Positions 11,937 to 32,783 of a stretch of DNA of 39,545 bases are shown in pieces. The notes under the pieces are model-generated. The model was given only the letters and a program-made list of their open reading frames with translations. It was not told where the DNA came from and made no database searches. The translations under genes and the position numbers were made by a program. This stretch comes from Accumulibacter sp. (GTDB taxonomy: Bacteria > Pseudomonadota > Gammaproteobacteria > Burkholderiales > Rhodocyclaceae). The stretch spans positions 1-39,545 of the forward strand of contig JAIFKU010000099.1 of assembly GCA_020049495.1 (NCBI GenBank), in the 5' to 3' direction. Position 1 is the stretch's first letter, and each line of letters begins with the position of its first letter.

Positions 11937-12377
11937 TCACGATCCGAGCAGTACGCAAGCCCAGACCAGCGCCACGTTGAACAAGGTCAGCAGCACAGCG
12001 GCGCTGCCAATATCCTTGGCGCGTTTGGAAAGGTGATGCCGATCCAGTGAAACCCTATCCACAGTGGCTTCAATCGCCGAATTGAGCAATTCAACGATTA
12101 GCACCAGCAGCACGCTGGCAATCATCAGCGCACGCCCGAGTCCGCCCACCGGCAGAAAAAAGCTTGCGGGGATCAGCACCGCGGCGAGCAGCGCTTCCTG
12201 ACGAAAGGCATCTTCGCACTTGAAAGCCGCACGCAAGCCGGCCAGCGAATAATGCAAGGCATTCCATATGCGTTGCAAACCGGTTTTCCCTTTGAAAGGG
12301 CTTTCCTCAAGCACAGGCTTCTCCTTGCCAGCGACAGTAACCGGCAAGTATACCGGCTTTATTTCAGGCTTATGCAT
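11937..12377 (-). CDS. dgkA: Diacylglycerol kinase, small membrane type
   Basis: DgkA (146 aa) phosphorylates diacylglycerol to phosphatidic acid in the inner membrane. The signature ELLNSAIEATVDRVS is present, flanked by three hydrophobic segments (roughly residues 63-77, 80-95 and 122-143). It is somewhat longer than E. coli DgkA (122 aa) because of an N-terminal cytoplasmic stretch of about 30 residues; this may be a start-site question, but no better start with a ribosome site stands out. The gene begins 5 nt after the glycosyltransferase stop and so is almost certainly co-transcribed with it. In this context it would return diacylglycerol released from phospholipid to phosphatidic acid, rather than only recycling lipid from osmoregulated glucan synthesis as in E. 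coli. Confidence 0.93.
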   Translation of the reverse strand: MHKPEIKPVYLPVTVAGKEKPVLEESPFKGKTGLQRIWNALHYSLAGLRAAFKCEDAFRQEALLAAVLIPASFFLPVGGLGRALMIASVLLVLIVELLNSAIEATVDRVSLDRHHLSKRAKDIGSAAVLLTLFNVALVWACVLLGS

Positions 12378-12382
12378 TCTGC

Positions 12383-13573
12383 TCAGAGCGGCAACAGATT
12401 GAAATCGGCCTCACTACGGCTGAAATGCTTGCCGACGATCTGCCTGTATAGTTCCGCCATTTTTCCGGCGAGCCGATCATCCGACCACTCGCTGGCGTAG
12501 AGGCGACCGTCCGCGGCCAGACGACTGCGCAAGTCTGCATCGAGCAGAACTCGGCCAAGCGTCAGCGAAAAGGCATAGGGATTATCATCCGGGATGATCG
12601 CCCCGCGACCTGCGCCGAGAATATCGAGCGTTCCCATCTCAGCCAGCGCCACCACCGGCAGACCGGCCGCCATTGCTTCGAGCAGAACCAACCCCTGGGT
12701 CTCGGTCCGCGACGCAAAGGCAAAAACGTCTGCCGCCGCATAACAGTCAGGGAGTTCCGTCTGGCGATCGAGATAGCCGATGAACTGGACGCTATCGTGC
12801 AACCCCCGATCAACGACGGTCTGGCGAAGCTGGCGCAGCGCCGGCCCCTCTCCGGCAATCAGCAGCAGAATGTCCGGTACCGCTTCGCGCGCCAGATCGA
12901 CCGCGTCGAGCAGGAAAGCGATATTTTTTTCATGCGCCACACGGCCGACAAAGAGCGCGACCGGACGTGATTCGTCGATGCCAAAGCGCAGGCGGAACGA
13001 TGATCGACCGCAATTGGCTGCAGTCTGTATCGGGATGCCCGTAGGCAGCACATGCATTGGCGAGGTCACGCCGTATCCGCTCAGCCGTTGGTGAATCGCC
13101 TTTGACGGTACGATGACGGCGTCGAGTGCGTTGCACTGCCGGCGGGAAAAGCGGCGCGCCAGTGCACGCAACCAGGCCGCCGGAATCAGCGGCGCATAGT
13201 GTTTCAGGTATTCCTCGAACAGCGTATGGTAAGTTGCAATCACCGGCAATCCATAGCGGCGTGCGGCACTGCATCCGGCATAGTGGGCAACAAATGGCGT
13301 CTGCACATGAATCAGGTCGCAGCCCTGCTCGACCGCATGTTCAACGGCATCGTGCATACGCCCCCAACGCACCAGTCTATCTTCCGGGTCACCCGGAACC
13401 GCTCGTGAAGGAACGCGGGCAATCCACGATTCGGCGCAAGGCTGTCCATAGTCGGGGGCCACCAGGCTGACTTCAACGCCATGCGCCCGCAAGGCCTGTC
13501 TATAAGTCTGGATCGCGGTTGAGACGCCATTGATCCTGGGAAAATAGACATCCGAAACCATCACGACACGCAT
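12383..13573 (-). CDS. GT4 family glycosyltransferase, possible diacylglycerol glycosyltransferase
   Basis: A 396-residue GT-B fold glycosyltransferase of family GT4. The N-terminal domain begins SDVYFPRINGVST, a pattern shared by MgtA-like mannosyltransferases and by the SqdX/Agt group that transfers sugar to diacylglycerol. The nucleotide-sugar domain has VGRVAHEKN near 215 and the retaining-enzyme EX7E motif in ETQGLVLLE. No signal peptide or membrane span is seen; such enzymes act at the cytoplasmic membrane surface. Its first 13 bases overlap the end of the upstream metallophosphatase gene and dgkA follows after 5 nt, so the three form one unit. From context I infer that it glycosylates diacylglycerol, as Agt does next to PlcP in other bacteria. 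The sugar donor and acceptor are unproven. Confidence 0.85.
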   Translation of the reverse strand: MRVVMVSDVYFPRINGVSTAIQTYRQALRAHGVEVSLVAPDYGQPCAESWIARVPSRAVPGDPEDRLVRWGRMHDAVEHAVEQGCDLIHVQTPFVAHYAGCSAARRYGLPVIATYHTLFEEYLKHYAPLIPAAWLRALARRFSRRQCNALDAVIVPSKAIHQRLSGYGVTSPMHVLPTGIPIQTAANCGRSSFRLRFGIDESRPVALFVGRVAHEKNIAFLLDAVDLAREAVPDILLLIAGEGPALRQLRQTVVDRGLHDSVQFIGYLDRQTELPDCYAAADVFAFASRTETQGLVLLEAMAAGLPVVALAEMGTLDILGAGRGAIIPDDNPYAFSLTLGRVLLDADLRSRLAADGRLYASEWSDDRLAGKMAELYRQIVGKHFSRSEADFNLLPL

Positions 13574-14355
13574 GCCACTTCCTCCATGTTTTCGTTGCTG
13601 TGGAGCAATTCCGTACTGCCCCAGGCAATCAGTTCAAGACGACCATCGAAGTGCTCGACGATGGCGGTACAACTATCGACCCAGTCGCCGCAGTTCACAT
13701 AACTGACCCCGTCGATTTCGCGGATCACGGCGCTGTGGATATGACCGCAGATGATGCCATCCAGACCGCGCTGGCGTGCCGCACGCAGCGCAGCATCCTC
13801 GAAATCGAAGATGAACTGCAGCGCTTTCTTCACCCGCCGTTTGGCGTAACCGGCCAGCGACCAGTAGCAGGTCATGCCGAAACGCCGGCGAATGAACGAC
13901 ACGATAGAATTCAGGCGCACCAGCACGTCATACATGACGTCGCCGAGTACGGCGACCCAGCGATGGTGCCGGGTAATCTGGTCGAACTCGTCGCCATGCA
14001 GTAGCAGGAAGCGGCGCCCGTCAGCCAGTTCATGCACGTATTCGCCAACCACCTCGATATCCCCGAACGCAATTCCGAGGTAATCGCGCAAGGCTTCGTC
14101 GTGGTTGCCCGGGATGAAGACCACCCGTTCGCCACGCCGCGCACGCTTGAGGATTTTCTGCACAATGGTGTTCTGTGCGGCGGTCCAGACGATGCTCCGG
14201 CGCATGGCCCAGAAGTCGACAATGTCACCGACGAGAAATACATTCTCGGCCACATAACTACGCAGAAATTCGAGCAGACGATCCGCCTGGCAGGCACGCG
14301 TGCCCAAATGGATATCAGAAAGGAAAATCGAGCGGACTGTCGGCATGCCGCGCAT
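13561..14355 (-). CDS. PlcP/LpxH-like metallophosphatase, probable phospholipid phosphodiesterase
   Basis: A 264-residue calcineurin-type phosphoesterase of the UDP-2,3-diacylglucosamine hydrolase group (COG2908). Metal ligands are clear: SDIHLG (Asp14, His16), GDIVDFW, GNHD, HGDEFD and GHIH. Genuine LpxH has GNRD rather than GNHD and a different central region; the opening SDIHLGTRACQADRLLEFL resembles PlcP, the phospholipase C-like enzyme that degrades phospholipid under phosphate limitation. It is therefore more likely a phospholipid-cleaving enzyme than the lipid A enzyme. The overlap with a GT4 glycosyltransferase gene and the following dgkA support this. The start is uncertain: Met4 (14346) is an alternative, and a Pho-like element ends only 14 nt before 14355. 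Neither start has a good Shine-Dalgarno sequence. Confidence 0.85.
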   Translation of the reverse strand: MRGMPTVRSIFLSDIHLGTRACQADRLLEFLRSYVAENVFLVGDIVDFWAMRRSIVWTAAQNTIVQKILKRARRGERVVFIPGNHDEALRDYLGIAFGDIEVVGEYVHELADGRRFLLLHGDEFDQITRHHRWVAVLGDVMYDVLVRLNSIVSFIRRRFGMTCYWSLAGYAKRRVKKALQFIFDFEDAALRAARQRGLDGIICGHIHSAVIREIDGVSYVNCGDWVDSCTAIVEHFDGRLELIAWGSTELLHSNENMEEVACVS

Positions 14356-14369
14356 GTTGCGCAGAATCC

Positions 14370-14398
14370 GTTACAAATCGATGTCATTTCCGTGACAT
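14370..14398 (-). promoter_or_regulatory. Pho-box-like triple half-sites before the PlcP-like gene
   Basis: Read on the minus strand: ATGTCAC, GGAA, ATGACAT, CGAT, TTGTAAC. These are three 7-mers at strict 11-nt spacing, the layout of PhoB sites (CTGTCAT-N4-CTGTCAT). Each half-site matches about 5 of 7. The segment also contains a perfect dyad, ATGTCA-N6-TGACAT (14381-14398), so it could be an operator of another type, and on the plus strand it could serve rpiA. Confidence 0.45.
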
Positions 14399-14536
14399 TT
14401 CCGATTTCCCGACTGGCAGGCTGCCGTTTGCCGGTGCGTCCGGCCCACGGCACTAGCCAGGCGACACATATCCTGTCATCACAGCGCCCAATTCGTTAGA
14501 ATGGCAGCCGATGATCAACAACCGGATACGCAATTC

Positions 14537-15199
14537 ATGACGCAGGACGAACTCAAGCAGGCAGTGGCGCGTGCCGCACTGAACTATGTGGTCGAAGGCA
14601 AACTTGTCGGGGTGGGTACGGGTTCAACCGCCCGGCTGTTCATCGAGGCACTGGCCGGTATGAAGGACAGGATCGCCGGGGCCGTGGCCAGTTCCGAAGA
14701 CACCCAGCGACGGCTGGAAGGTCACGGCATCAGGGTCTTCGACCTCAACGACATCACCGAACTTCCGGTTTATATCGATGGCGCCGACGAGATCAATGTC
14801 GAGATGCACATGATCAAAGGGGGGGGTGGCGCCCTGACGCGCGAGAAAATCGTCTCCGCCGTCGCCACCAAGTTTGTCTGCATTGCTGACGGATCAAAGC
14901 TGGTCGAGGTCCTCGGCAAGTTTCCGCTGCCGGTCGAAGTCATCCCGATGGCACGCGCGCATGTTGCGCGCGAACTGACCCGGCTGGGCGGCATCCCGTT
15001 GGTTCGCGAGGGCTTCATCACGGACAACGGAAACCTGATCCTGGACGTTAAGGGATTGCAGATTGTCGACCCGGTCGATCTTGAAACGCGCATCAACCAG
15101 ATCGTCGGCGTAGTTAGCAACGGCCTCTTTGCCCACCGCCCGGCCGATGTCTGCCTGATCGGGACGAGCCAGGGCGTGCAGACACTGAAAGCAGACTGA
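14537..15199 (+). CDS. rpiA: Ribose-5-phosphate isomerase A
   Basis: RpiA (220 aa, E. coli 219) interconverts ribose-5-phosphate and ribulose-5-phosphate in the pentose phosphate pathway. The sequence opens [15 protein letters not shown], which aligns with the E. coli N-terminus, so I place the start at 14537 although the frame is open from 14501. The phosphate-binding [13 protein letters not shown], the active-site region DGADEIN, and [12 protein letters not shown] are all intact. No strong ribosome site is visible at either start. It is divergent from the lipid cassette and followed by phoU; a Pho-box-like element overlaps its stop codon. It complements the transketolase at the left end of the window. 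Confidence 0.96.
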
Positions 15200-15213: not shown

Positions 15214-15274
15214 TTTCCCGGGGTAAGCTTCAAGAAACCCTATTCCCGTGCCCAATCATTCCGGAGCAAGAAGC

Positions 15275-15976
15275 ATGAGCGACCACACTTCCAAGAATTT
15301 CGATCTTGAACTCGAAAGTCTGCGCACGCGGGTCCTGCAAATGGGCGGCCTGGCCGAACAACAGGTGCGCAAGGCGATGGAAGGCCTCTACAGTGGCGAT
15401 CAGCCGCTGCTTGAGAATGTCATCCGTGACGATGAGCGCATCAACCAGATGGAGATCGAAATCGATGCTCTGTGTAATCAGGTCATCGCCAAGCGGCAGC
15501 CGACGGCCATCGATCTGCGCATGATCGTCTCCGTCCTCAAGGCCATAGCCGACCTTGAGCGTGTCGGTGACAAGGCACGCAAAATCGCCCGCCTCGGCAT
15601 CGCCCTTTCGAAGCAGCCGGTCGTCAGCACGCTGAATGTCGAACTGACGCATATGGCCGACACGGCGTTGAAGATGCTGCGCCTCTCGCTTGACGGCTTT
15701 GCCCGGCTGGACGTCAGCCTGGGTACCGAGGCGATGCATCTCGATGCGTCGGTCAACTCGGAGTATCAGGCCGTGGCCCGCCAGTTGATCACCTACATGA
15801 TGGAAGACCCGCGCACCATCACCCGATCGCTGGATATTCTTTCCATCGCCAAGGCCATCGAACGTATCGGTGACCATGCGACCAACATCGCCGAATATGT
15901 GGTCTACATGGTCAAAGGATTGAATGTGCGCCACGCCACGGCCGAGGAAATTGAAGCGCAGCTTGCCGGCAACTGA
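15275..15976 (+). CDS. phoU: Phosphate-signalling regulator PhoU
   Basis: PhoU (233 aa) is a cytoplasmic helical protein that connects the Pst phosphate transporter to the PhoR/PhoB two-component system and limits phosphate uptake. It has two repeated three-helix domains, each with the E/DxxxD metal-cluster pattern: ERVGDKARKIARLG in the first and ERIGDHATNIAEYV in the second. The start at 15275 (MSDHTSKNFDLEL) has GGAG eight bases upstream; nine upstream in-frame codons are not needed. Unlike E. coli, where phoU ends the pst operon, here it stands alone after rpiA, with no pst genes in the window. A Pho-box-like element precedes it, suggesting induction in phosphate limitation. Confidence 0.96.
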   Translation: MSDHTSKNFDLELESLRTRVLQMGGLAEQQVRKAMEGLYSGDQPLLENVIRDDERINQMEIEIDALCNQVIAKRQPTAIDLRMIVSVLKAIADLERVGDKARKIARLGIALSKQPVVSTLNVELTHMADTALKMLRLSLDGFARLDVSLGTEAMHLDASVNSEYQAVARQLITYMMEDPRTITRSLDILSIAKAIERIGDHATNIAEYVVYMVKGLNVRHATAEEIEAQLAGN

Positions 15977-17962: not shown

Positions 17963-19471
17963 TTAATCCTTAGCCTTCTCTGAATGTTTTTCGGTATTCA
18001 AGGCTTTTTCCAGGCGCTCGCAAATGGTACGCAAAATCTTGACCCGGGCAAAATTCTTGTCATTGGCCTCGACCAGCGTCCACGGAGCGGTACTGGTACT
18101 CGTCCGGTCAACCAGGTCGCACACGGCATCGTGGTAGGCCTTGCTCTTCTTGCGGTTGCGCCAGTCCTCCTCAGTGATCTTGAAGCGCTTGAACTCGATT
18201 TTCTCACGCTCCTTGAAGCGTTTGAGCTGTTCCTGGGCACTGATCTGCAGCCAGAATTTGATGACGATCGCGCCATCCTTGTGCAGTTCATGCTCGAAAT
18301 CATTGATCTCGGTGTAGGCGCGCAGCCAGTCTGCCTCGCTGCAAAAGCCTTCGACCCGCTCAACCAGGACACGGCCATACCAGGTGCGGTCAAATATGGT
18401 CACCCGGTTAACACGCGGAATATGCCGCCAGAAACGCCACAGGTAGGGTTGCGCACGTTCCTCCTCGGTGGGCGCCGCAACCGGAACGATCTGGTACTGG
18501 CGGGCATCAATCGCCGCCGTCACGCGCCGGATGCTGCCGCCCTTGCCCGCCGCATCGGAACCCTCGAATGCCAGGATCAGCGAGTGTTTCCTGAATTCCG
18601 GATGGCGCACCAGTTCTGATAGACGCCCCTGCCACTTGGCAAGTTGGGTCTCGTAGGTCTGCTTCTCCAGAGTCTGCGTCAGATCAAGCGCCGTCAGTAC
18701 ATCCAGACGGTCGATCTTCGGCGCCATCGGCGGTGCCACTGGATAGTTCTGGTCGCGCGTATCAGCCAGACGCTTCTGCAGAGCGTCAAGAATGATCTTG
18801 CCGACCGTCAGCGAGCGATAGCGGTCGTCCGTTCCTTCGACAACGATCCACGGCGCCCACGGCGTGTTGGTCATGCGCAACACGTGGCCCGCGGCCTCCT
18901 GCAACTTGTCGTAGGTCTTCAGGCGCGCCCAGCTTTCCTTGGTCACCCGCCAGGCCGTTCTCGGGTCTTTCTCGAGTGCCTTCAGACGCTGGCGCTGCCC
19001 GTCCTTGGACAGGTGAAACCAGAACTTGAGGACCAGCGCGCCCTCGTTGACCAGCATGGCCTCGAAACGGTTGATCTGATCCATGCGCTGGTCAAGATCG
19101 CCCTTGTCCAGTTTGCCGCGAATTCGCTCGGCGATCGGATTCGAATACCACGACCCGGCGAAAATCCCGATTCGGCCTTTGGGCGGCAGTGCCCGCCAGA
19201 AGCGCCACATGTAGGGACGTTCCTGTTCCTCATCGGTGGGTGTCGAGAATGCCAGCGTAGAAAGATAGCGCGGATCCATCCACTCGTAGAGTACGTTGAT
19301 CGTTTCGCCCTTGCCCGATCCATCAACCCCGCTGATCAGGATGACCACCGGAAACTTGCCGTTTTCGCGGAAATCGAACTGTGTATCGAGCAGCGCAGCG
19401 CGCAACTTGGGTTCCTCCTCGCGGAAGGTTTCCTTGTCGATCCTGTGTCCCAGTTCTGCCGATTCAAACAT
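17963..19471 (-). CDS. pap: Polyphosphate:AMP phosphotransferase (two-domain PPK2)
   Basis: A 502-residue tandem PPK2 protein, the class II architecture that phosphorylates AMP to ADP with polyphosphate. Domain 1 (about 40-250) has Walker A GVDGSGKGE (48-56); domain 2 (about 295-490) has GSDAAGKGG (304-312) and the conserved DRTWYGRVLVERVEG (361-375). The matching place in domain 1 reads AGSWYSNPI, losing the Asp-Arg pair, so I infer that domain 2 is the catalytic one. I chose the start MFESAELGHRID at 19471, which has GGTGGAG just upstream; the frame is open eight codons earlier. It overlaps the rsmE stop by 8 bases and argA follows after 7 nt. With adenylate kinase this enzyme regenerates ATP from polyphosphate. 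Confidence 0.94.
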   Translation of the reverse strand: MFESAELGHRIDKETFREEEPKLRAALLDTQFDFRENGKFPVVILISGVDGSGKGETINVLYEWMDPRYLSTLAFSTPTDEEQERPYMWRFWRALPPKGRIGIFAGSWYSNPIAERIRGKLDKGDLDQRMDQINRFEAMLVNEGALVLKFWFHLSKDGQRQRLKALEKDPRTAWRVTKESWARLKTYDKLQEAAGHVLRMTNTPWAPWIVVEGTDDRYRSLTVGKIILDALQKRLADTRDQNYPVAPPMAPKIDRLDVLTALDLTQTLEKQTYETQLAKWQGRLSELVRHPEFRKHSLILAFEGSDAAGKGGSIRRVTAAIDARQYQIVPVAAPTEEERAQPYLWRFWRHIPRVNRVTIFDRTWYGRVLVERVEGFCSEADWLRAYTEINDFEHELHKDGAIVIKFWLQISAQEQLKRFKEREKIEFKRFKITEEDWRNRKKSKAYHDAVCDLVDRTSTSTAPWTLVEANDKNFARVKILRTICERLEKALNTEKHSEKAKD

Positions 19472-20225
19472 GCTCCACCCCCTCTCCGAAGTCACCCCAC
19501 AAGCACTGAATTGCCGCCAGTGCAGCCAAACCCGCAGTTTCAGTACGCAACACGCGTGGCCCCAGGCGAATCGGCACGAATCCGGCCAACTCCGCCAGTT
19601 TTATTTCTTCAGGCGCCAGCCCCCCCTCCGTTCCGATCAGCAATTCGACCTGCCCTCCCGGAGCGGGCGGCACCAGGCGGTTCAAAGTCTGCACCGCCCT
19701 GGGGTCGAGTATGAGGCGCAACACACCCTTTGCTGCGGGACGGCCCAGCCAGCGCTCCAGAACCTCCAGCGTCGCCACCTCGGGCAGCGTGTTGCGCCCG
19801 CACTGCTCACAGGCAGAAGCCACTATGCTCCGCCAGTGGTCCACCCGTCGTTTCGCCCGTTCGCCCTCAAGGCGCATGACACTACGCCTCGAAACTACCG
19901 GCACGATACGCACCACACCCAGTTCAACGGCTTTCTGTACCGTTGTATCCATTTTCTCGCCGATCTGCAGCGCCTGTACCAGGGTAATGGCCAGCGGCGC
20001 CTCGCACTCGAGCTTACGCCATTCCAGCACGGCAACGGCCACGCATTCGCGTTCGACCGAACTAATGCGGCAAGCATACTCTCCGCCGGCACCGTCGAAA
20101 AGCACAAGATCATCGTCAACGTGCAAGCGCAATACCCGACACGCGTGTCTTGCCGCATTTTCCGGCAGCATGACATGCGAACCTGCCGACAACGGCACAG
20201 GACAGAAAAAACGGGGTGAACTCAT
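19464..20225 (-). CDS. rsmE: 16S rRNA (uracil-1498-N3)-methyltransferase
   Basis: RsmE (253 aa) is a SPOUT-class enzyme that methylates U1498 of 16S rRNA with S-adenosylmethionine. The N-terminal PUA-like domain (1-70) includes HACRVLRL, and the trefoil-knot domain includes QIGEKMDTTVQKAVELGV, SACEQCGRN, the SAM loop IGTEGGLAPEE and LGPRVLRTETA. The SAM loop is usually IGPEGG; here Thr replaces Pro, a mild oddity. It heads the rsmE-pap-argA unit and overlaps pap by 8 bases. On the minus strand a TATAAT hexamer lies at 20237-20232, just upstream of the start, with no clear -35. Confidence 0.96.
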   Translation of the reverse strand: MSSPRFFCPVPLSAGSHVMLPENAARHACRVLRLHVDDDLVLFDGAGGEYACRISSVERECVAVAVLEWRKLECEAPLAITLVQALQIGEKMDTTVQKAVELGVVRIVPVVSRRSVMRLEGERAKRRVDHWRSIVASACEQCGRNTLPEVATLEVLERWLGRPAAKGVLRLILDPRAVQTLNRLVPPAPGGQVELLIGTEGGLAPEEIKLAELAGFVPIRLGPRVLRTETAGLAALAAIQCLWGDFGEGVEHV

Positions 20226-21288: not shown

Positions 21289-23757
21289 ATGTCTGATACA
21301 AGAAAAGCCAAAGCCGACGGTGCAGCCTTTCGCACCGAAATCGACAACAAGTTGCTCCACTCTGTTGCCGCCGAGCCGGCCACGGCAAACACCAAGGAAC
21401 TCTACAAAGCACTTTCGCAGGTTGCGCGCGATCAGTTGGCCCGGCGCTGGGTCGACACGCAGGTTGCCGACCGCAGAAAAAAAACGCGCCGCATCTACTA
21501 CATGTCAATGGAATTCCTGATCGGGCGTACGCTGAACAACGCCCTCTCGGCACTTGACCTGCGCGACAAGGCAGCCGCCGCCTTCTCCGATGCCGGAGGA
21601 CCTTCACTGACCGACGTCATCGAATGCGAACCGGATGCAGCACTGGGCAATGGCGGTCTAGGCCGCCTGGCGGCCTGTTTCCTCGACTCGATGGCGACGC
21701 TCGAACTGCCGTCCTGGGGTTATGGCATGCGCTATGAGTATGGCATGTTTGCGCAATCGATCATCAACGGCGGCCAAGTCGAGCATCCAGATTCCTGGCT
21801 GGTCGATGGAACCCCGTGGGAATTTCCGCGGCCAGGTACGCACTTCACCGTCCGCTTCGGCGGAACCGCCGAACACCACGGCGAATGGGCCGAATGGAAT
21901 GCCGCCGAAGCGGTAGAAGCCCGGGCCTATGATTACGTTATTCCCGGTCACGGCACCGACAGGGTAAGCACCCTGCGCCTCTGGAAAGCAGGCGCGCCGG
22001 CTCAGATCGACCTGAATGCCTTTAATTCCGGTGATTACGCCCGCGCTGCCGAGTTCAAGAACCGCTTCGAAAACATTTCCTGGGTCCTTTATCCGAATGA
22101 CAGCACGCCGGCAGGTCGCGAACTGCGCCTGCGGCAGGAATATTTCTTCGTGGCCGCATCGCTGCAGGATATTCTGTTCCACCATCTGGAGGAATATGGC
22201 AGCCTGCACAATCTGGCCGATCAGGTCGCCATTCACCTCAACGATACCCATCCGGCGATCAGCGTCGCCGAACTGATGCGCCTGCTGTGCGACGATTACG
22301 GGATGCTCTGGGCGGACGCTTGGAGCCAGTGCCGGCGCATCTTCTCCTATACCAATCACACGCTGATGCCTGAAGCGCTGGAGACCTGGCCGGTCGGCCT
22401 GATGCACTATCTGCTGCCGCGCCACTTGCGCATCATCTTCCGCATCAACCAGGAATTCCTCAGCGAAGTTGCGCAACGCTTCCCGGGCGACATCGACCTT
22501 ATCCGCCGTGTTTCGATAATCGATGACGCGGACGGCAACGAGGACAACAAACGGGTACGCATGGCCTACCTCTCGATCATCGGCAGTCACCGGGTCAATG
22601 GCGTATCACAATTGCATTCCGACCTGATGGTCAAGACTATTTTTGCCGATTTTGCACGCCTCTATCCGAATCGATTCCACAACAAGACCAATGGGGTCAC
22701 GCCGCGTCGCTGGCTGGCACAGGCCAACCCGGGGCTGTCAGGACTGCTTGACGAGCGTCTCGGCAAGGACTGGCGACTCGATCTTGACCGTTTGCAGGGC
22801 CTGCGCCCACTGGCCGACGACGAAGGATTCCGTACGGCCTTTGCTGCAGCCAAACGCAGCAACAAACTACGGCTCGCCGATTACATCAAGCGCGAGACCG
22901 GCGTCGCCCTCAATCCGGACAGCCTGTTCGACATCCAGGTCAAGCGCATTCACGAATACAAGCGGCAACTGCTCAATGTGCTGCACGTCATCACCCGTTA
23001 CAACGCCATTCTGCACGGTCTTGCCGACGACGCGGCGCCGCGCTGCGTGATCTTTGCCGGCAAGGCTGCCTCGTCGTACTACATGGCCAAGCAGGTGATC
23101 CGCCTGATTCACGATGTGGCCACGGTAATCAACAACGACCCGCGTGCCAATGAACAACTCAAGGTCGTATTCGTTCCCAATTACGGCGTTTCGGTGGCAG
23201 AACTGATCATGCCTTCTGCTGATCTTTCCGAACAGATTTCGACCGCGGGTACCGAGGCATCAGGCACCGGCAACATGAAGTTTTCGTTGAATGGCGCACT
23301 GACCATCGGTACCGAGGATGGTGCCAATATCGAGATCCGCGATAACGTGGGCGGCGAAAACATTTTCATATTCGGCAACAGCACGCCACAGGTCGAAGCC
23401 ATCCGCAAATCCGGTTACGATCCACGGAGCATTTACCTGAACAACGCGGCGCTCAATGAAACGCTGAACAAGATCGACGGCGGATTCTTCTCGACCGGCG
23501 ACCGGAAACGTTATCACGACATCTTCAACACGCTGGTCAATTATGGCGATCACTACCTGCTGCTGGCCGACTATGCCGACTATGTGGCAACGCAAAGCCG
23601 AGTCGACAAGCTTTATCTGAGCCCAACCGAATGGCAACGCAAAGCCATTCTTAACGTCGCCGGCATGGGCACCTTCTCGTCCGACCGCACCATCCGGGAT
23701 TATGCCGTCGACACCTGGAATATGGGCTCACTGCTCAAGAAGGGCTGGAATGCTTAG
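21289..23757 (+). CDS. glgP: Glycogen phosphorylase
   Basis: GlgP (822 aa, E. coli 815) releases glucose-1-phosphate from the non-reducing ends of glycogen with inorganic phosphate and pyridoxal phosphate. Recognisable blocks are [44 protein letters not shown], the substrate-loop [16 protein letters not shown], and [14 protein letters not shown] with the PLP-binding Lys664. It is the first gene of glgP-glgB-glgX-malQ; the glgB start lies within its last codons (8-base overlap), so translation is probably coupled. Because the reaction consumes phosphate, its activity ties glycogen breakdown to phosphate status. Confidence 0.98.
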
Positions 23758-25942
23758 CAAGGCGGAAGTTACTTCCCTCTGTTGCGGTGAACACGGCGAC
23801 CCGTTTGCCGTGCTCGGACTGCATGCCGACGCCAAAGGCCGTCTCTGGTTGCGCAGCCTGCAGCCCGGTGCGAACTCGGTATTCGTCATTGATGCCGATA
23901 GCGGCAAGGTACTGATCGAACTCAGCCAGCGCAGGATCGAGGCCCTGGGAGAAAATTCGGGCTTTTTCGAAGCCTCCATTCTCGGCCGCAATAAGCCGTT
24001 CGACTATCGCCTGCGTATCGTCTGGCCCGGTGGGACACAGGAGGTCGACGACCCATACCGCTTCGCCACGGTGCTCGGCGAACTGGATGTCTGGCTGCTG
24101 GCCGAAGGCTCGCATCTGCGTCCATTCGAGCGGCTCGGGGCACATTTGCGCGAGATCGACGGCGTCAAAGGAACGGCCTTTGCCGTCTGGGCGCCCGACG
24201 CCCAGCGTGTCAGTGTCGTCGGTGACTTCAACACCTGGGATGGGCGTCGTCACCCGATGCGTCTGCGCCGTGAATGCGGCGTCTGGGAACTCTTTCTGCC
24301 TGGCGTTGCGGCAGGCGCCCACTACAAATACGAAATTCGCTCAAGCGATGGCCATGTGCTTCCGCTCAAGGCCGATCCCTATGGCTTTGCCGCCGAGATG
24401 CGGCCATCGACGGCCTCGATCGTCTGTGCGTTGCCGCAGACGGCAACGCGTGTTTCCGTTGCCGCCGGCGGCAAGTTGAACGTCCCGGTTTCGATCTACG
24501 AAGTCCACCTCGGATCGTGGCGGCGTGCCGATGACGGCGGCTTTCCGGACTGGCTGCGCATTGCCGAAACATTGATTCCCTACGTCACCGATCTTGGTTT
24601 CACGCACCTCGAACTGCTGCCAATTTCGGAACACCCCTTTGACGGCTCATGGGGCTATCAGCCGCTTGGCCTTTACGCACCGACCGCCCGTTTTGGTTCG
24701 CCGCAAGGCTTTTGTGACTTTGTCTCCGCCTGCCATACGGCCGGACTCGAAGTCATCGTCGATTGGGTACCGGCACATTTCCCGACCGACGAACATGGTC
24801 TGAGCCGTTTCGACGGAAGACCGCTTTACGAACATGCCGACCCGCGCGAAGGCATGCACCAGGACTGGGGTACGCTGATCTACAACTTCGGCCGGCGTGA
24901 GGTATTCAATTTTCTCGTCGGCAATGCCCTGTTCTGGATCGAGCATTACGGCGTCGATGGCCTGCGCGTCGATGCCGTGGCCTCAATGCTCTACCGCGAT
25001 TACAGCCGCGAAGCCGGACAGTGGGTTCCAAATGTCTATGGCGGTCGGGAGAACCTTGAAGCCGTGCATTTCCTGCGCCGCATGAACGAAGTACTCGGCC
25101 AGGAATGCCCGGGAGCCGCGACCTATGCCGAGGAATCAACGGCCTGGCCATCGGTCAGCCGCCCGCCGTCGATGGGAGGCCTGGGTTTCCACTACAAGTG
25201 GAACATGGGCTGGATGCACGATGTTCTGGGCTACATGACGCACGATCCGGTCCATCGCCGCTATCACCACAACCAGCTGACATTCGGCCTGCTTTACGCC
25301 TTTACCGAAAATTTCGTCCTGCCCCTGTCGCACGACGAGGTCGTGCACGGCAAAGGCTCGCTGATCAGCAAGATGTCCGGCGACTACTGGCAGAAATTTG
25401 CCAATCTGCGGGCGCTCTATGGCTTCATGTGGGGGCATCCGGGCAAGAAACTGCTGTTCATGGGCGGCGAATTCGCCCAGTGGAACGAGTGGAATGATGA
25501 AGCTTCGCTCGACTGGAACCTGCTTGATTTCCCTCAGCACGACGGCGTACGCCGCCTGATAAGGGATCTGAACCAGCTCTATCGGCGGACACCGGCGTTG
25601 CACGAGATCGACTTCGACCCGTCCGGATTCGAATGGATTTCGGCCAATGATTCCGACAACTCGGTGCTCGCTTTCCTGCGCCGCGCCCATGACCGTTCGC
25701 GCGTGATGCTTTGCGTCTGCAATTTCACCCCGATCGTGCGACACAACTACCGGCTGGGCGCGCCTGGCCCGGGGGTGTACCACGAACGCATCAACACCGA
25801 CTCAGAGTATTACGGGGGCAGCAACGTCGGAAATCTGTTTGGCATGGTCGACGCCGAGCCGATTGCCGCTCATGGCCGTGAGTGGTCACTCTCGCTGACG
25901 CTGCCGCCACTGGCTACCGTGTTTCTCGAATGGGAACACTGA
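23750..25942 (+). CDS. glgB: 1,4-alpha-glucan branching enzyme
   Basis: GlgB (730 aa, E. coli 728) makes alpha-1,6 branches in glycogen. The order is an N-terminal domain (1-110), CBM48 (about 120-215, [20 protein letters not shown]), the GH13 barrel, and a C-terminal beta domain. The catalytic triad is Asp408 ([10 protein letters not shown]), Glu461 (AEESTAWPS) and Asp529 ([10 protein letters not shown]), each three residues later than in E. coli. The start MLSKAEV at 23750 overlaps the glgP stop by 8 bases with AAGGG just upstream; the 16 codons before it in frame are glgP sequence read in another frame. The glgX start overlaps its end by 13 bases. Confidence 0.98.
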
Positions 25943-27936
25943 ACAGCGATGCCGGCCTGCTGGCCGGGCGGCCATGGCCGCTCGGAGCGCACTGGGATGG
26001 CGCGGGCGTCAATTTCACCCTGTTTTCGGCGCATGCCGAGCGGGTTGAGTTGTGCGTCTTTGTGGACGGCAGGATGCACGCACTGCCTCTTCCCGAGTGC
26101 ACCGATCAGGTCTGGCATGGCTACCTCCCGGGCGCCGCTCCCGGTCTCAGCTACGCCTTCCGGGTACATGGTCCGAACACCCCCGGCCATCGCTTCGATC
26201 CGCAACACCTCCTGATCGACCCCTATGCCCGGGAGCTGACCGACATTTTTTCCTACGGGCACTCCCCTTCATCCTCAAACTGCCTGAAGGCCTGTGTTGT
26301 TGATGAAGCCTTCGACTGGGGCCAGGATGCCCCTCCGGCGATCCCGTGGGCCGACTCAATCCTTTACGAAATACACGTCAAGGGGGCGACACGCCAGCAC
26401 CCCTGTGTTCCCGAAGCCCTGCGCGGCAGCTACGCCGGGCTGTCCTCTCCCGCCATGCTCAAACATTTCAAGCAGCTCGGGATCACGGCCGTCAATCTCC
26501 TCCCGGTGCACTGTTTCCTCGACGAGGAGCGCCTGGTGCATAGCGGTCGCGCCAACTACTGGGGTTATAACACGCTGGCCTTCTTTGCCCCCGAGCCGCG
26601 CTATGCTGCACGCGCAAGCGGCCAGTCGGTGATCAGCGAATTCCGCAGCATGGTCCGCTCGCTGCATGCCGCCGGCATTGAAGTCATTCTCGATGTGGTT
26701 TACAACCATACGGCCGAAACCGACGAAACCGGCCCGACGGTCTCCTTCCGCGGTATCGATAACGCCAGCTACTACCGCCTTCCGGCGAGCGATCCCAATG
26801 CCTACGAGAATTTCAGCGGTTGCGGCAACAGCTTGAACCTTGCCCATCCCCGCGTGCTGCAACTGGTCATGGACTCGTTGCGCTACTGGGTTGGCGAAAT
26901 GCACGTCGATGGTTTTCGCTTCGATCTGGCGACCTCGCTCACCCGTGATAGCGGTTTCCTTGCCGCCGTCAGACAGGATCCCATGCTGGCACGGGTCAAA
27001 CTGATCGCCGAACCCTGGGATCTGGGACCCGATGGTTATCGCCTGGGCCGATTCACCCCGGGCTGGAGCGAATGGAACGACCGTTTTCGCGACGACGTTC
27101 GCGCTTTCTGGCTGACCGGCGAAACCGGAGTAGCCGGACTGGCGCAACGACTGGCCGGATCGAGCGAGATCTTCCGCCGCTGCGGACGCACACCGCAGGC
27201 CGGCGTCAATTTCATTACGGCACATGACGGTTTTACCCTGCGTGATCTCGTCAGCTATCAACACAAGCATAACGAGCTAAATGGCGAGAACAATCGTGAT
27301 GGACACGGTCACAACCTCTCCTGGAATTGCGGCGTAGAAGGCGAGACTCTCGATCCGCTTGTCCTCCGGCAGCGCCATCATCTGCAGCGTGCGCTGCTGG
27401 CCACCCTCTTTGTCGCGCAGGGCGTACCAATGCTGCAGGGAGGCGACGAACTCGGCCGCTCGCAATCAGGCAACAACAACGCCTACTGTCAGGACAACCT
27501 CCTGACCTGGATCGCCTGGAAGCAGGCCGATGTTGAACTGATCGAGTACACTGCCGGACTGATTCATCTGCGGCAACGCTTTGCGCAATTGCGCCAACCG
27601 GCCTGGCTAACCGGCGAAGCCAATGCCTGCGGGCAACGCGACGTTGTCTGGTGGCATCCGGATGGGCGCGAGATGAGCGGCAATGACTGGCATGCGCCGC
27701 ATCCGGGAGCGCTGGGGTTCATTCTTGCGGCTGAAGACAGCGACGATGCAGAGCAAAATCCTCAAACCCTGCTTGTACTGATTAACCGGGATAACGCAGC
27801 ACTGACTTTCCGCCTGCCGCCAGGCGTCTGGCAGCAACACTGCGACAGCAGTGCCGACATTCCTTTCGCCAGTCTGCCGCGCCAGGGCTCCAGTACCTTG
27901 TCGGTGCGCAGCGTGCAACTACTATCACAGGACTAG
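25930..27936 (+). CDS. glgX: Glycogen debranching enzyme, isoamylase type
   Basis: GlgX (668 aa, E. coli 657) hydrolyses alpha-1,6 branch points, preferring short limit-dextrin branches left by phosphorylase. It has an N-terminal CBM48 (about 10-110) and a GH13 barrel with DVVYNHTAE, nucleophile Asp332 (GFRFDLATS), acid/base Glu361 (IAEPWDLG) and Asp433 (TAHDGFTL). The start MGTLNSDAG at 25930 overlaps glgB by 13 bases; upstream in-frame codons are glgB read in another frame. No clear Shine-Dalgarno sequence is seen, consistent with coupling to glgB translation. malQ follows after 4 nt. Confidence 0.97.
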
Positions 27937-27940
27937 TACC

Positions 27941-29497
27941 ATGCCTTTTCACCGACACAGCGGCATTCTGCTGCACCCGACCTCCCTTCCCGGCCCGCAC
28001 GGTTCAGGCGATCTGGGTGCAGCGGCCTATCATTTTGTAGACTGGCTGGTAGCCGGAGGCCAGACCCTGTGGCAGGTTCTTCCCCTCGGCGGCATCGGAC
28101 CGGGCAACTCGCCCTACATGAGCCCTTCAGCCTTTGCCGGCAATGAACTGCTGATCGATCTTGTCCAGTTGCGTGATGCCGGCTGGCTGACGACGGACGA
28201 TATCGAGCCTGACACCGTGTTCAAACCTGTTCAAGTCAATTTCCCGGCAGTGCATTGTTTTCGCATGGCGCGATTGCGGCTGGCGGCAGAACGATTCTTC
28301 ACCGATGCCCGGCACGATGCGCAGGAGGCTTTTTCAGCGTTCTGCGACAACGATTGCGACTGGCTTGATGACTACGCACTGTTCATGGCCCTGGATAAAA
28401 ACCACGGCGGCCATGGCAAGTGCTGGCAGGACTGGCCAGCGCCACTGGCGCAACGCAAGCCGAAAGCACTGCGCGAAGCGGCAGACCTGCTCAGGGACGA
28501 GTGCAATTTCTGGAAATTCTGTCAGTGGTGCTTCTACAGCCAATGGACGGCACTCAAGGAGTACGCCAACACGCGCGGCGTCGAGATTGTTGGCGACATG
28601 CCAATTTTTGTCTCCGCTCACAGTGCCGATGTGTGGGCGAATCAGAAACTGTTCGACCTGGATGACCGGGGTCAGCCGCGCGTCATTGCCGGAGTGCCGC
28701 CCGATTACTTCAGCAACACCGGACAGCGCTGGGGCAATCCGCTTTACCGCTGGCCGGCGCACCAAAAGGAAGGCTATCACTGGTGGATCGCGCGCATGCG
28801 CGCGGCTCTGGTTCTCTGCGACATTGTCCGTATCGATCATTTCCGCGGTTTCGAATCCTACTGGGAGATTCCGGCTGACGCCAAAACGGCGGTCATCGGT
28901 CACTGGCGGTCAGGTCCGGGTGCTGCCTTGTTCACCGCGCTGCGCAATGCGCTGGAAAAGCCACTGGAGGGAACTCCGGGCAAGCTGAGAATCATTGCCG
29001 AGGATCTCGGCATCATCACCCCCGAAGTCACCGTCCTGCGTAAGGCCATTGGTTTGCCCGGCATGCGCATCCTGCAGTTCGCCTTTGACGGCCACACCGA
29101 CAATTTATACCTGCCGCACAACTTTGAGCCCAATACCGTCGTCTATACCGGCACCCACGACAACGATACGACCTGCGGCTGGTGGAACGCGCTGGCCGCA
29201 CATGAACAGGATTTTATCCGCCGCTACCTTGGCATTTGCGGCGAATCCATCCAATGGGATCTGATCCGGGTGGCCTCGGCTTCCGTTGCCCTGCTCTCAA
29301 TCATTCCTATGCAGGACGTACTTGGCCTCGATTCGACGGCGCGCATGAACCAGCCGGGGCAGGCAGAGGGTTCCTGGGAATGGCGTTTCAGTTGGGATCA
29401 GGTTGCGCCGTGGCACGCCGAACGCCTGGCCGAACTGGCATACTTGCACGGTCGCCTGCCGCGACGCCGGGCGGATACGCATGCGCTTCCACACTGA
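27941..29497 (+). CDS. malQ: 4-alpha-glucanotransferase (amylomaltase)
   Basis: MalQ (518 aa) transfers short alpha-1,4-glucan segments between maltodextrins, which lets phosphorylase finish the oligosaccharides released by GlgX. The GH77 residues are present: Asp299 (IVRIDHFRGFESYW), Glu354 (IIAEDLGIITPEV) and Asp407 (GTHDNDTT). The N-terminus HSGILLHPTSLPGPHGSGDLG is the usual opening of short bacterial amylomaltases. The start at 27941 has AGGA nine bases upstream and follows glgX by 4 nt; the frame is open earlier but lies in glgX. It is the last enzyme gene of the operon. Confidence 0.97.
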   Translation: MPFHRHSGILLHPTSLPGPHGSGDLGAAAYHFVDWLVAGGQTLWQVLPLGGIGPGNSPYMSPSAFAGNELLIDLVQLRDAGWLTTDDIEPDTVFKPVQVNFPAVHCFRMARLRLAAERFFTDARHDAQEAFSAFCDNDCDWLDDYALFMALDKNHGGHGKCWQDWPAPLAQRKPKALREAADLLRDECNFWKFCQWCFYSQWTALKEYANTRGVEIVGDMPIFVSAHSADVWANQKLFDLDDRGQPRVIAGVPPDYFSNTGQRWGNPLYRWPAHQKEGYHWWIARMRAALVLCDIVRIDHFRGFESYWEIPADAKTAVIGHWRSGPGAALFTALRNALEKPLEGTPGKLRIIAEDLGIITPEVTVLRKAIGLPGMRILQFAFDGHTDNLYLPHNFEPNTVVYTGTHDNDTTCGWWNALAAHEQDFIRRYLGICGESIQWDLIRVASASVALLSIIPMQDVLGLDSTARMNQPGQAEGSWEWRFSWDQVAPWHAERLAELAYLHGRLPRRRADTHALPH

Positions 29498-29527
29498 AGC
29501 AAAGCCTCCAAAATCATCCATTTGTAC

Positions 29528-29533
29528 TATAAT
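29528..29533 (+). promoter_or_regulatory. TATAAT -10 hexamer before the DUF2934-type gene
   Basis: A perfect TATAAT lies 55 nt before the gene start, just after the malQ stop. No good -35 is found at 16-18 nt upstream, so this suggests rather than proves separate transcription of the small gene. Confidence 0.4.
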
Positions 29534-29588
29534 CATAGCGTTGGTCTTATTTTAAATCCCATCTTTCACCATCTGGAAGGATAAAATC

Positions 29589-29948
29589 ATGGCTGAGACG
29601 ACCAGCAAGACAAGTATCAAGAAAGCGGCCAGCAAAACTGCGCTCGCCAGCCCGAAACCTGCCGCCAAAAAGCCGGTAATCACCAAGGCCAAGACGCCAG
29701 GCGTCAAGCCTGCCACGGCCAAAAAACCAGCAACGCTAAAAAAGCCGGCCGTCATCAAAGCGACAGTCATTCAACCCGCCGTCAAGATTCCCACCAAGGC
29801 CATGGTTGTCAGCGATGCGCAGCGTTATCGTATGGTCGCCGAAGCGGCCTACTATCGCGCTGAAAGCAACCAGTTCAAGAGCGACCCAGTGCGCGACTGG
29901 ATTGAAGCTGAAAGTGATATTGCCGCCTTGCTCAGCGGCAGCAAATAA
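29589..29948 (+). CDS. Small Lys/Ala/Pro-rich protein with DUF2934-type C-terminus
   Basis: A 119-residue protein in two parts. Residues 1-70 are a strongly basic, low-complexity tail of AKKP/KKPA-type repeats resembling histone H1-like bacterial proteins. Residues about 77-114 (RYRMVAEAAYYRAE...DPVRDWIEAESDIAALL) match the DUF2934 pattern of a short helical unit ending in W-x-E-AE. There is no signal peptide or membrane span. AAGGAT precedes the start and a TATAAT lies upstream. The tail could bind nucleic acid or another polyanion such as polyphosphate; that is inference. Its place between the glycogen breakdown and synthesis operons hints at a link with storage metabolism. Function unknown. 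Confidence 0.8.
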   Translation: MAETTSKTSIKKAASKTALASPKPAAKKPVITKAKTPGVKPATAKKPATLKKPAVIKATVIQPAVKIPTKAMVVSDAQRYRMVAEAAYYRAESNQFKSDPVRDWIEAESDIAALLSGSK

Positions 29949-29962
29949 TCCGGCATACGGCA

Positions 29963-30015
29963 ACACCCAGCACCTGACCGGAGAACTCCATCTGTTTCCG
30001 ATCAGGCGTTGGTGT
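29963..30015. terminator. Possible bidirectional hairpin between convergent operons
   Basis: ACACCCAGCACCTGACCGG (from 29963) and the segment 29998-30015 ending GGCGTTGGTGT form a long imperfect stem between the DUF2934-type gene and glgA, which converge here. The stem has mismatches and only a weak T-run (ATTTTC) downstream on the plus strand. Confidence 0.3.
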
Positions 30016-30051
30016 CTTACCGACAGATTTTCTGTTTTACGTGACTATTGA

Positions 30052-31491
30052 TTACAGACTGCGGTAGAGCGCTTCGTAGTTCGCCGCCGAATCATCCCAG
30101 GAAAAATCCCTGACCATGCCACGCCGCTGGACTTGCCGCCAGGCGCCCTCGTCGCGGTACAGCGCGCAGGCTTCACGGATGCGTGTACCAAAGGCATGGC
30201 GCGAGGCATCGTCAAAAACAAAACCGGTTGCCCGGTCCGACTGAAGATTGTCTGGCGTCGCATCAACTACCGTGTCGGCCAGACCGCCAACCCGGCGCAC
30301 AAGAGGCAGCGTGCCATAGCGCAAGGCGTAAAGCTGGGTCAGGCCACAGGGCTCAAAACGCGACGGAACAAGCAAGGCATCGGCACCAGCCATGAAGCGA
30401 TGGGACATTTCTTCGTCATAACCGATATGTACGGCGACCTTCTCCGGATTAGCCGTTGCGGCATAGCGGAAACCTGCTTCTAGATCGCCATCACCGGTAC
30501 CAAGTACCGCCAGTTGTGCGCCTTCCCTGAGCAGGTCGGGCAAGGCCGCCAGCAGCAGATCCATGCCTTTTTGCGACGTCAGGCGGCTGACCACAGCGAA
30601 CAGCGGCCCTTCCGCGTTTCTGGACAGGCCAAGTTCTGACTGCAAGGCGAGCTTGCAGGTTTTCTTCCCCTTGAGGTTGTCCGCATTGTAGGGCTTGGCG
30701 ATAACCGGATCATCCGGAGTCCAGATCCCGTAGTCCACGCCGTTGAGAATGCCGGACAGATCACCGCCACGATCACGCAGCACCCCCTCAAGCCCGCACC
30801 CGAACTCCGGCGTACAGATTTCGCGCGCATAGGTCGGACTGACCGTGGTTATTCTCTTTGAAAAAACCAGCCCCGCCTTCATGAACGATATCTTGCCGTG
30901 AAACTCGATGCCGAGCGGGGTCAACTTGCGCATCGGCAACCCCAGATCGACATGACAGTCGAGCGGGAAAATACCGCGGAAGGCCAGATTGTGGATAGTG
31001 AATACAGTCGCCGTCTTCAGTGCCGGGTTCTGCGCCATGTAAGCCGGTACCAGTCCGGCGTGCCAGTCGTGGGCATGCACGACATCAGGCCGCCAGTCGG
31101 AGTCGAGTTCACCGGAAGCGATGTGGGCAGCCACCCAGCCGAGCAGCGCAAAACGGCGATGGTTGTCGCTCCAGTCCTGTCCATCCGGACCCACATATGG
31201 ATTGCCTTCACGCTGAAAGAGGAAGGGTGCATCAATCACATAGGCCTGCAAACCGCTATCGGGCAAGCGACCGAGAAGGAGCGTCACGACTGCCGCACCG
31301 AAAACCGGGCCAATCCGGAGCACCGGTTTAAGCCCGATCATTCCCCCGAGAATGCCGGGCAGTCCGGGCAATAGTACGCGGGCATCAAGCCCGCGCTTGG
31401 CCAGCGCCGGTGGCAGTGCCGAAACAACGTCGGCCAGGCCGCCGGTTTTGACAAGAGGATAGATTTCGGCAGCAACGTGTAATATGCGCAT
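30052..31491 (-). CDS. glgA: Glycogen synthase (ADP-glucose)
   Basis: GlgA (479 aa, E. coli 477) elongates alpha-1,4-glucan chains from ADP-glucose; it is a GT5 enzyme with a GT-B fold. The N-terminal KTGGLADV (Lys15) binds the ADP-glucose phosphate, [15 protein letters not shown] opens the second domain, and EPCGLTQLY holds the catalytic Glu. The start is 20 nt after the glgC stop and shows no Shine-Dalgarno sequence (upstream ...ACTCGCTATTTACG), so it probably depends on glgC read-through. It is the last gene of pgi-pgm-glgC-glgA and converges on the glycogen breakdown operon. Confidence 0.97.
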
Positions 31492-31511
31492 CGTAAATAG
31501 CGAGTTGGATT

Positions 31512-32783
31512 TCAGGAAAGCCGGTCGATCATTTGCCGCGTAACCAGCGTGATGCCGTTTTCAGTACGCCGGAAACGTCGCGCATCATCCTCGGGATCTT
31601 CACCGATGACCATCCCGGGTGGAACATGGACACCGTGGTCGATAATGCACCGGCTCAGCCTCGCCCTTCGGCCAACCTCGACATCAGGCAACAGGACCGA
31701 CCAGTCGACCCGGGCATAGGAATGCACCCGGCAGAGCGAAAAAAGCAGAGAACGGTTCATTTCACCCGAGACGATACAGCCGCCGGCAACCGTCGATTCG
31801 AAGGCCACTCCATGGCGATCGATCTGGTTGTGCACGAACTTGGCGGGGGGCAATTGCTGCTGGTAGGTCCATATCGGCCAGCTGCGATCATACAGATTCA
31901 GGGCAGGATCGGTCGCCGTCAGATCGACGTTGGCCTCCCAGTAGGCATCAACAGTACCCACATCGCGCCAGTAATTCTCCTTGCCCGGGCCTTCTTCCGG
32001 GGCGTGAACGCAGCTGCGATCGAAGGAGTGCGCTATGGCCACTCTGTTCTTCACGGCACGTGGAATGATGTCCTTGCCAAAGTCATGGTTGGACATCGGG
32101 TCGGCAATATCGCGCAATAACTCGCTGTAAAGATATTTGGCGTTAAAGATATAGATGCCCATGCTGCACAGCGAATGGTCCGGCTTTTCAGCCATCGGGG
32201 GCGGATTGGCAGGTTTCTCGACAAAATCGGTAATGCGCCGGCTGGCATCCACTGCCATCACGCCAAACCCGGTGGCATCCTTTCGCGGCACCTCGATACA
32301 GGCCACCGTGCACTCGGCGCCGCTTTCCACGTGATCGACCAGCATCGCCGCGTAACTCATCTTGTACACGTGATCGCCGGCAAGAATGACGACGAAATCC
32401 GGGGTCGGATGGTAGTTCTGAATGATGTCCAGGTTCTGGTAGACCGCATCCGCAGTTCCCCGATACCAGGATTCTTCATCCACCCGCTGCTGCGCCGGCA
32501 GCAGATCGACGAATTCGTTGACCTCGCCACGCAAGAAACTCCATCCGCGCTGAAGGTGACGCAGCAGACTGTGCGACTTGTACTGGGTCACCACCCCGAT
32601 GCGCCGGATCCCCGAATTGACACAGTTGGACAAGGCAAAATCGATGATCCGGAATTTCCCGCCAAAATAAACGGCTGGCTTGGCTCGCCGGTCGGTCAAC
32701 TCGTACAAGCGACTGCCACGACCACCGGCAAGCACCAGGGCAACTGCCCGGCCTGGCAACTGGAATGTTCGCCTTTCTAACAT
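31512..32783 (-). CDS. glgC: Glucose-1-phosphate adenylyltransferase (ADP-glucose pyrophosphorylase)
   Basis: GlgC (423 aa, E. coli 431) makes ADP-glucose from glucose-1-phosphate and ATP, the committed and allosterically regulated step of glycogen synthesis. The nucleotide-binding [18 protein letters not shown], the [10 protein letters not shown] segment, the substrate loop [12 protein letters not shown] and the FVEKPANPP lysine are all present. The C-terminal half is the usual left-handed beta-helix. GGAG lies eight bases before the start. It sits 58 nt after pgm and 20 nt before glgA. The effector (fructose-1,6-bisphosphate, fructose-6-phosphate or other) cannot be read from sequence. Confidence 0.97.

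Follow-up and report, generated by a model that had tools for sequence, protein, structure and literature searches.

Three neighbouring minus-strand genes, plcP, GT4A and dgkA, in a 39,545-nucleotide stretch of an Accumulibacter sp. genome (contig JAIFKU010000099.1 of assembly GCA_020049495.1, our C120; hereafter the window) probably serve to replace membrane-lipid phosphate by sugar when phosphate runs out. They encode a PlcP-type phosphoesterase, a GT4 glycosyltransferase (here GT4A) whose clade is separate from Agt and a diacylglycerol (DAG) kinase, in a genome of 3.46 Mb that comprises 178 contigs and is 85% complete. Specifically, judging from the sites found, a PhoB-type phosphate-starvation signal would turn on plcP-GT4A from a Pho-box-like site upstream of plcP. 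PlcP, as a two-metal phosphoesterase, would remove the head-group phosphate of membrane phospholipids to leave DAG, and GT4A, with its GT-B fold, would transfer a sugar onto DAG to give a phosphorus-free glycolipid. DgkA, made at least partly from its own promoter, would return unused DAG to phosphatidic acid, i.e., act as a return valve and not as an inducible step. We consider this scheme as a whole likely, based on comparative sequence data.

A sequence-only reading of this DNA had proposed a three-gene cassette, and the plcP-GT4-dgkA order proved to be conserved: it recurs in many genomes, which places it far beyond chance. Across 28 genomes of the genus (59 to 100% complete; co-occurrence counts uncorrected for shared ancestry), plcP and GT4A were found together in 12 and neither in 16, and dgkA was found in 24; the GT4A entry of one genome (G003) was put in by hand from contig-end pieces. 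The plcP-GT4A pair is also present in records named Rhodocyclus, Dechloromonas, Thiobacillus and Accumulibacter. Gene order varies, with GT4A-dgkA-GT4C-plcP in G028 (L149; GT4C is a third glycosyltransferase clade, see below) and dgkA behind a plcP-agt pair in G055 (L030). Because rpiA next to plcP-GT4A-dgkA also occurs in G034, Rhodocyclus (L042, L043) and Oryzomicrobium (L046), the simpler reading is that plcP-GT4A would have been lost from the plcP-less congeners. This agrees with genome G026, in which remnants of a second plcP lie beside dgkA (L111 4459-4834), while an intact plcP-GT4A pair, followed by a gene of Agt type by position and match, is found on another contig (L113).

The product of dgkA scored 116 bits against a Pfam PF01219 gathering score of 22.3 bits. 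The gene could be a mere neighbour, i.e., a housekeeping kinase at an old rpiA-dgkA site with plcP-GT4A lying between, so that no functional three-gene cassette would exist. Consistent with this, 7 of 13 dgkA regions of plcP-less congeners have dgkA and rpiA as immediate neighbours (L097-L101, L104, L108; L103 has no rpiA match within 8.3 kb, and L096, L102, L105, L106 and L107 are short, contig-end or matchless). It is twice as widespread in the genus as plcP (24 genomes vs 12) and is the sole PF01219 match in the window's own 85%-complete genome. A conserved -10-like element, TATACT, precedes it whether plcP is present or not: within the genus, 9 of the 12 genomes with plcP have it, as do 6 of 11 dgkA regions from genomes without plcP (shuffle expectation 0.22 and 0.24, respectively; two of the 11 regions come from one genome, G021). 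Outside the genus TATACT was seen in 1 of 11 regions, there within the GT4A frame. Since the element is conserved with and without plcP, dgkA in this genus probably has its own promoter, although no -35 fitting TATACT was found in the region before dgkA. Between GT4A and dgkA the minus strand showed nothing resembling a terminator, so read-through from plcP into dgkA would be possible.

Other observations speak against mere adjacency. Across various gene orders, GT4A and dgkA are no more than 2 kb apart in 15 of the 19 genomes having both, and GT4C and dgkA in 7 of 12, including G057 and G058, where PlcP has no strong match. Rhodocyclus and others have dgkA immediately behind GT4A with no TATACT, and in G055 dgkA adjoins plcP-agt. 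Because of the 15 of 19 genomes, we regard the dgkA-GT4A link as probably functional, and the mere-neighbour explanation as rather unlikely. The proposal that dgkA is the tightly packed third gene of a dedicated cassette is weakened: the tight form occurs in other genera (L014/L152, L037, L041-L043, L088), but not here, where 68 nt, a -10-like element of its own and rpiA adjacency in congeners set dgkA apart. We also considered dgkA as a gene confined to plcP genomes and rejected this, as plcP-less congeners carry it too. In G058, a genome without a strong plcP match, a stretch of ~6.4 kb (L145 2695-9103) holds a PAP2-like phosphatase gene, dgkA, GT4A and, 1.4 kb on, a pstB-like gene, the PAP2 and pstB calls being made by eye.

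The glycosyltransferase had been taken for an Agt-like partner of PlcP, an assignment that its motifs and its separate clade rule out. Agt, or GTcp, of Pelagibacter HTCC7211 is marked by GRVAxEKN and FPSxTDTFG, with Asp replacing the usual GT4 Glu (PMC8231724; this and the other papers cited here by PMC number were available in part, and what we take from them is limited to those parts). GT4A of the window keeps the donor motif as GRVAHEKN, in which G210-A213 and E215-N217 are invariant in 22 GT4A rows, but it has FASRTETQG in place of FPSxTDTFG. Over all loci, ETQG was found in 51 of 51 GT4A and DTFG in none of these 51, whereas 14 of 14 Agt-type genes have DTFG, and the third clade, GT4C, has ET(F/Y/W)G in 32 of 32. 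The RG(V/I)(D/P) segment of the Agt type (RGVD-type in the Pelagibacter enzyme) is absent in 50 of 51 GT4A. In likeness to the Pelagibacter enzyme, His104 and Trp320 of the latter match, by eye, an invariant His and an invariant C-terminal Trp of GT4A. GT4A is 396 aa long, and the Agt-type open reading frames (ORFs) in these genomes are shorter.

In a tree of 36 of the 41 chosen names, GT4A, Agt-type and GT4C formed three clades, with the GT4A vs Agt-type split supported at 100/100 and 100/98. The Agt-type rows, none of them a verified Agt, were named by their motif and by adjacency to plcP, seen outside this family but within the order in L020, L023-L027 and L029-L031. A single Agt-type gene was found in the window's own genome, on contig C155 (84% identical to the Agt-type gene beside plcP in G010), and no GT4C match at E 1e-60. 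Overall, GT4A is a GT4 clade distinct from Agt by sequence criteria.

GT4A might act on phosphatidylglycerol, undecaprenyl phosphate or part of lipopolysaccharide, with PlcP merely scavenging phosphate. The missing RG(V/I)(D/P) segment and the Glu where Agt has Asp would fit such an acceptor, and the second NCBIfam match of GT4A is GlcNAc-phosphatidylglycerol synthase (125.6 bits). The structure model, a confident one (predicted local distance difference test, pLDDT, 89.5), has as its nearest solved folds MshA, GlgM, BshA and PimB', general GT-B relatives that have no single common acceptor type, so that the fold does not settle the acceptor. This, and scores far under every NCBIfam cut-off, count against naming DAG. 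On the other hand, the best family match is a DAG glucosyltransferase, the alpha-monoglucosyl-DAG synthase NF049988, which is the nearest family yet not one to which GT4A belongs (128 bits vs a cut-off of 400, over residues 1-381). GT4A is also repeatedly linked to genes for making DAG and for phosphorylating it, and 4 of the 12 usable upstream regions of GT4A contain a Pho-box-like site. We judge a different acceptor improbable and favour DAG as the putative acceptor.

The phosphoesterase was expected to be PlcP-like rather than LpxH-like, and this was borne out by a tree split, a residue hallmark and family scores. It contains both SDIHLGTRACQAD and GNHD, and falls below the LpxH cut-offs of TIGR01854 and NF003743 (44 of 190 and 44 of 134 bits). 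In a tree of 57 rows, 36 PlcP-like and 21 LpxH-like sequences each stood on their own side of a split supported at 100/100; 36 of 37 chosen PlcP-like sequences were used, the missing one being L018, whose match contains stops. The PlcP side consists of PlcP-like rows with no verified PlcP sequence among them. Among 81 distinct plcP-like entries of >200 aa, out of 97 collected, the GNHD His was present in 81 of 81, whereas 21 of 21 LpxH-like sequences had Arg at the same position (in the window protein, His85 at the LpxH Arg80-equivalent). All eight metallophosphoesterase core metal-ligand positions checked were kept in 81 of 81. In LpxH this Arg binds the phosphate of lipid X and is described as a hallmark occurring in no other protein (PMC5016852). 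Some phosphoesterase match was detected in 43 of 59 relatives, with full-length matches at ≥48% identity (PlcP) separate from matches at 23-34%.

A separate true lpxH, above the LpxH equivalog cut-off, was found on contig C153 of the same genome, preceded by a cyclophilin-like gene and followed by a nadC-like one (by eye), and the window protein is neither clustered with LpxH nor the only such gene. That it is a diverged LpxH or another lipid A synthesis hydrolase, as might be read from LpxH 5k8k being its sole solved sequence relative at E 0.01 (E 1.8e-5), is highly improbable and largely refuted by its 44 bits against the 190-bit LpxH cut-off, the His in place of the LpxH Arg and the separate lpxH. 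The phosphoesterase is PlcP-type, with its predicted activity following from family logic. A comparable case is 'LpxH2' of Pseudomonas aeruginosa, which we take to be PA3219, i.e., PlcP. Like the window protein, it is LpxH-like without the lipid X residues, in another species and with no phosphate link in the available text (PMC5016852).

Upstream of plcP lies ATGTCACGGAAATGACATCGATTTGTAAC, three 11-bp repeats with the layout of a PhoB site. Of 18 close distinct upstream regions, 13 had their best three-unit position at -63/-64 relative to codon 8, two had it displaced by a single 11-bp unit and three had it elsewhere. In an alignment of 11 congeners, the commonest-base fraction was 0.58-0.83 from this block to the start codon vs 0.38-0.45 further upstream; registering the alignment on GTAA(C/T) of the third repeat favours the columns concerned, and L008 (G009), whose upstream region fits poorly, is not in it. 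Over a wider set, 23 of 93 plcP loci (same-genome copies included) matched at least 11 of 14 positions of the Pho consensus vs 12 of 1860 shuffles, a modest signal. Across 82 distinct upstream regions, 20 reached at least 11 matches at a spacing of 11 vs 0-2 at spacings of 8, 9, 10, 12, 14 and 15. A spacing of 13 between CTGTCAT-like units was also over-represented, with 10 of the 82 regions at ≥11 matches. More distant loci come nearer to the PhoB consensus, with CCGTCATGTTCCTGTCAT in L059 and CTGTCACCGAACTGTCAC in L058. Where GT4A does not directly follow plcP, it can have its own Pho-box-like site, as with CTGTCATTATTCTGTCAT in L150 (14/14) and sites of 12/14 in L146, L070 and L072. The other 8 usable regions were below 12, in a set of 13 loci from which L092 was excluded because the gene starts at the locus edge.

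Several observations weigh against PhoB control of plcP-GT4A. The conservation extends past the repeats to the plcP start codon, and the site itself is sub-consensus, with 14 of 21 matches to a tripled CTGTCAT. As six other places in the window tie at 14/21 among ~79,000 start positions on both strands, the weight of the site rests on its conservation. A genome-wide search with a pattern shaped on the window site and allowing up to 2 mismatches gave no second site, and pstS has a weak repeat (9/14). Among the 93 plcP loci, 70 are without a match of at least 11 to the 14-position consensus, including most loci behind other genes. Upstream of the Agt-type gene on contig C155, the search for such a site gave no good match. 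Finally, no PhoB was found over the curated cut-off in the window's own 85%-complete genome, the highest score being 211 of 296 bits, though 50 of 59 relatives have a PhoB. PhoB binding at the window site is a prediction. In its favour, a second PhoB-type regulator gene (L154 1013-1687, L033 4158-4832) is divergent to plcP in the congener G010.

At the locus level (Table 1), the three ORFs have the coordinates and strand given in the sequence-only reading, and the 13-base overlap of plcP and GT4A is exact. The open frames, all on the minus strand, are 13561-14355 (264 aa), 12383-13573 (396 aa) and 11937-12377 (146 aa), and the block points away from rpiA-phoU and towards a response-regulator/GGDEF gene. 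A Shine-Dalgarno-like GGAGG of GT4A sits within plcP. The reported 5-nt gap between GT4A and dgkA came from an over-long dgkA frame. Because GTG 12314 has AAGGAG ahead of it, and a start codon with a similar Shine-Dalgarno sequence stands at the same position in relatives, dgkA probably starts there, 68 nt from GT4A; on the same evidence we rejected a start at ATG 12377. By tblastn of the long ORF, alignments began mostly at residue 11-25, and at 1-5 in some congeners (L090, L098, L102), so the start is not settled by alignment alone.

Table 1. Positions of the genes and sequence elements in the window.
Feature	Position	Strand	Remarks
plcP, PlcP-type metallophosphoesterase	13561..14346	-	261 aa from ATG 14346 (the more likely start); PF00149; tree and residue counts
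GT4A, GT4 glycosyltransferase of a non-Agt clade (ETQG motif)	12383..13573	-	396 aa; GT4 Pfam domains
dgkA, diacylglycerol kinase	11937..12314	-	125 aa from GTG 12314 (probable start); PF01219
Pho-box-like site, three 11-bp-spaced repeats ATGTCAC/ATGACAT/TTGTAAC, facing plcP	14365..14398	-	
Possible -10-like hexamer CAACAT, right before the plcP start	14354..14359	-	conserved columns near the common ATG
TATACT, conserved -10-like element of dgkA	12347..12352	-	
AAGGAG, Shine-Dalgarno of dgkA	12321..12326	-	
rpiA, divergent neighbour; marker of the rpiA-dgkA site in several plcP-less congeners	14501..15199	+	
phoU, phosphate signalling protein, 3' of rpiA	15248..15976	+	

For plcP, ATG 14346 (MPTVRS...) is more likely the start than 14355, because this ATG is common to most close relatives. 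By eye, no Shine-Dalgarno was seen in window positions 14332-14400 or in the relatives, and the -10-like block ends 7 nt before the common ATG; this pattern weakly suggests a leaderless plcP mRNA. In Tepidiphilus (L062, L067), by contrast, where plcP stands behind another gene, an AGGAGG is present. On the plus strand, a -35/-10-like pair, CTGTCA/TAGAAT (14473-14502), overlaps what was called as the first rpiA ATG, and the true rpiA start may therefore lie further downstream; the rpiA region has two -35/-10-like pairs vs a mean of 1.0 in shuffles. Elsewhere the window encodes a polyphosphate:AMP phosphotransferase (17963-19495, minus strand) and, across 21289-32783, glycogen phosphorylase, glgB, glgX, malQ, glgA and glgC.

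PlcP-Agt lipid remodelling is known from several lineages. Experiments have established it in P. aeruginosa (PMC8528852), in marine bacteria (PMC4796936) and in Methylosinus (PMC9239053), and Agt expressed in Escherichia coli yielded glycosyl-DAG (PMC4796936). The window shares with this pathway, as described for Sinorhizobium, Phaeobacter, SAR11, P. aeruginosa (PA3219-PA3218) and Methylosinus (PMC4796936, PMC8528852, PMC9239053), a plcP gene placed first, a GT4 gene next and a Pho-box-like site upstream. It differs in that the linked glycosyltransferase is not Agt, the Agt-type gene of this genome is located on contig C155, dgkA is adjacent, and the upstream repeats of this genus lean to GTAAC. 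Since plcP also precedes other putative glycosyltransferases in arrangement types 3 and 5 of PMC4796936, non-Agt partners are not in themselves new. We found no description of the GT4A clade, its dgkA link or its occurrence in these betaproteobacteria in the open-licence literature, with few subscription papers covered, and the available part of PMC13086504 does not describe the arrangement.

Going further, and with less than even confidence, we speculate that GT4A and DgkA, together with GT4C as a second non-Agt glycosyltransferase, make up a DAG-handling module that is conserved in betaproteobacteria and in part independent of PlcP, and that at low phosphate makes a glycolipid other than the MGDG or GADG of the Agt pathway. 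Organisms with both an Agt-type gene and GT4A, the present one among them, would then run two parallel routes from one DAG pool kept in check by DgkA.

If the proposed pathway is true, it would add Propionivibrio and its relatives to the bacteria that remodel their membranes under phosphate control, and name the GT4A clade as a candidate for the likely sugar-adding step; lpxH or agt labels on these genes would mislead. Because Propionivibrio dicarboxylicus DSM 5885, P. limicola and Rhodocyclus tenuis are isolates having the genes, the idea is directly testable. The groups with the plcP-GT4A pair include wastewater bacteria exposed to phosphate swings.

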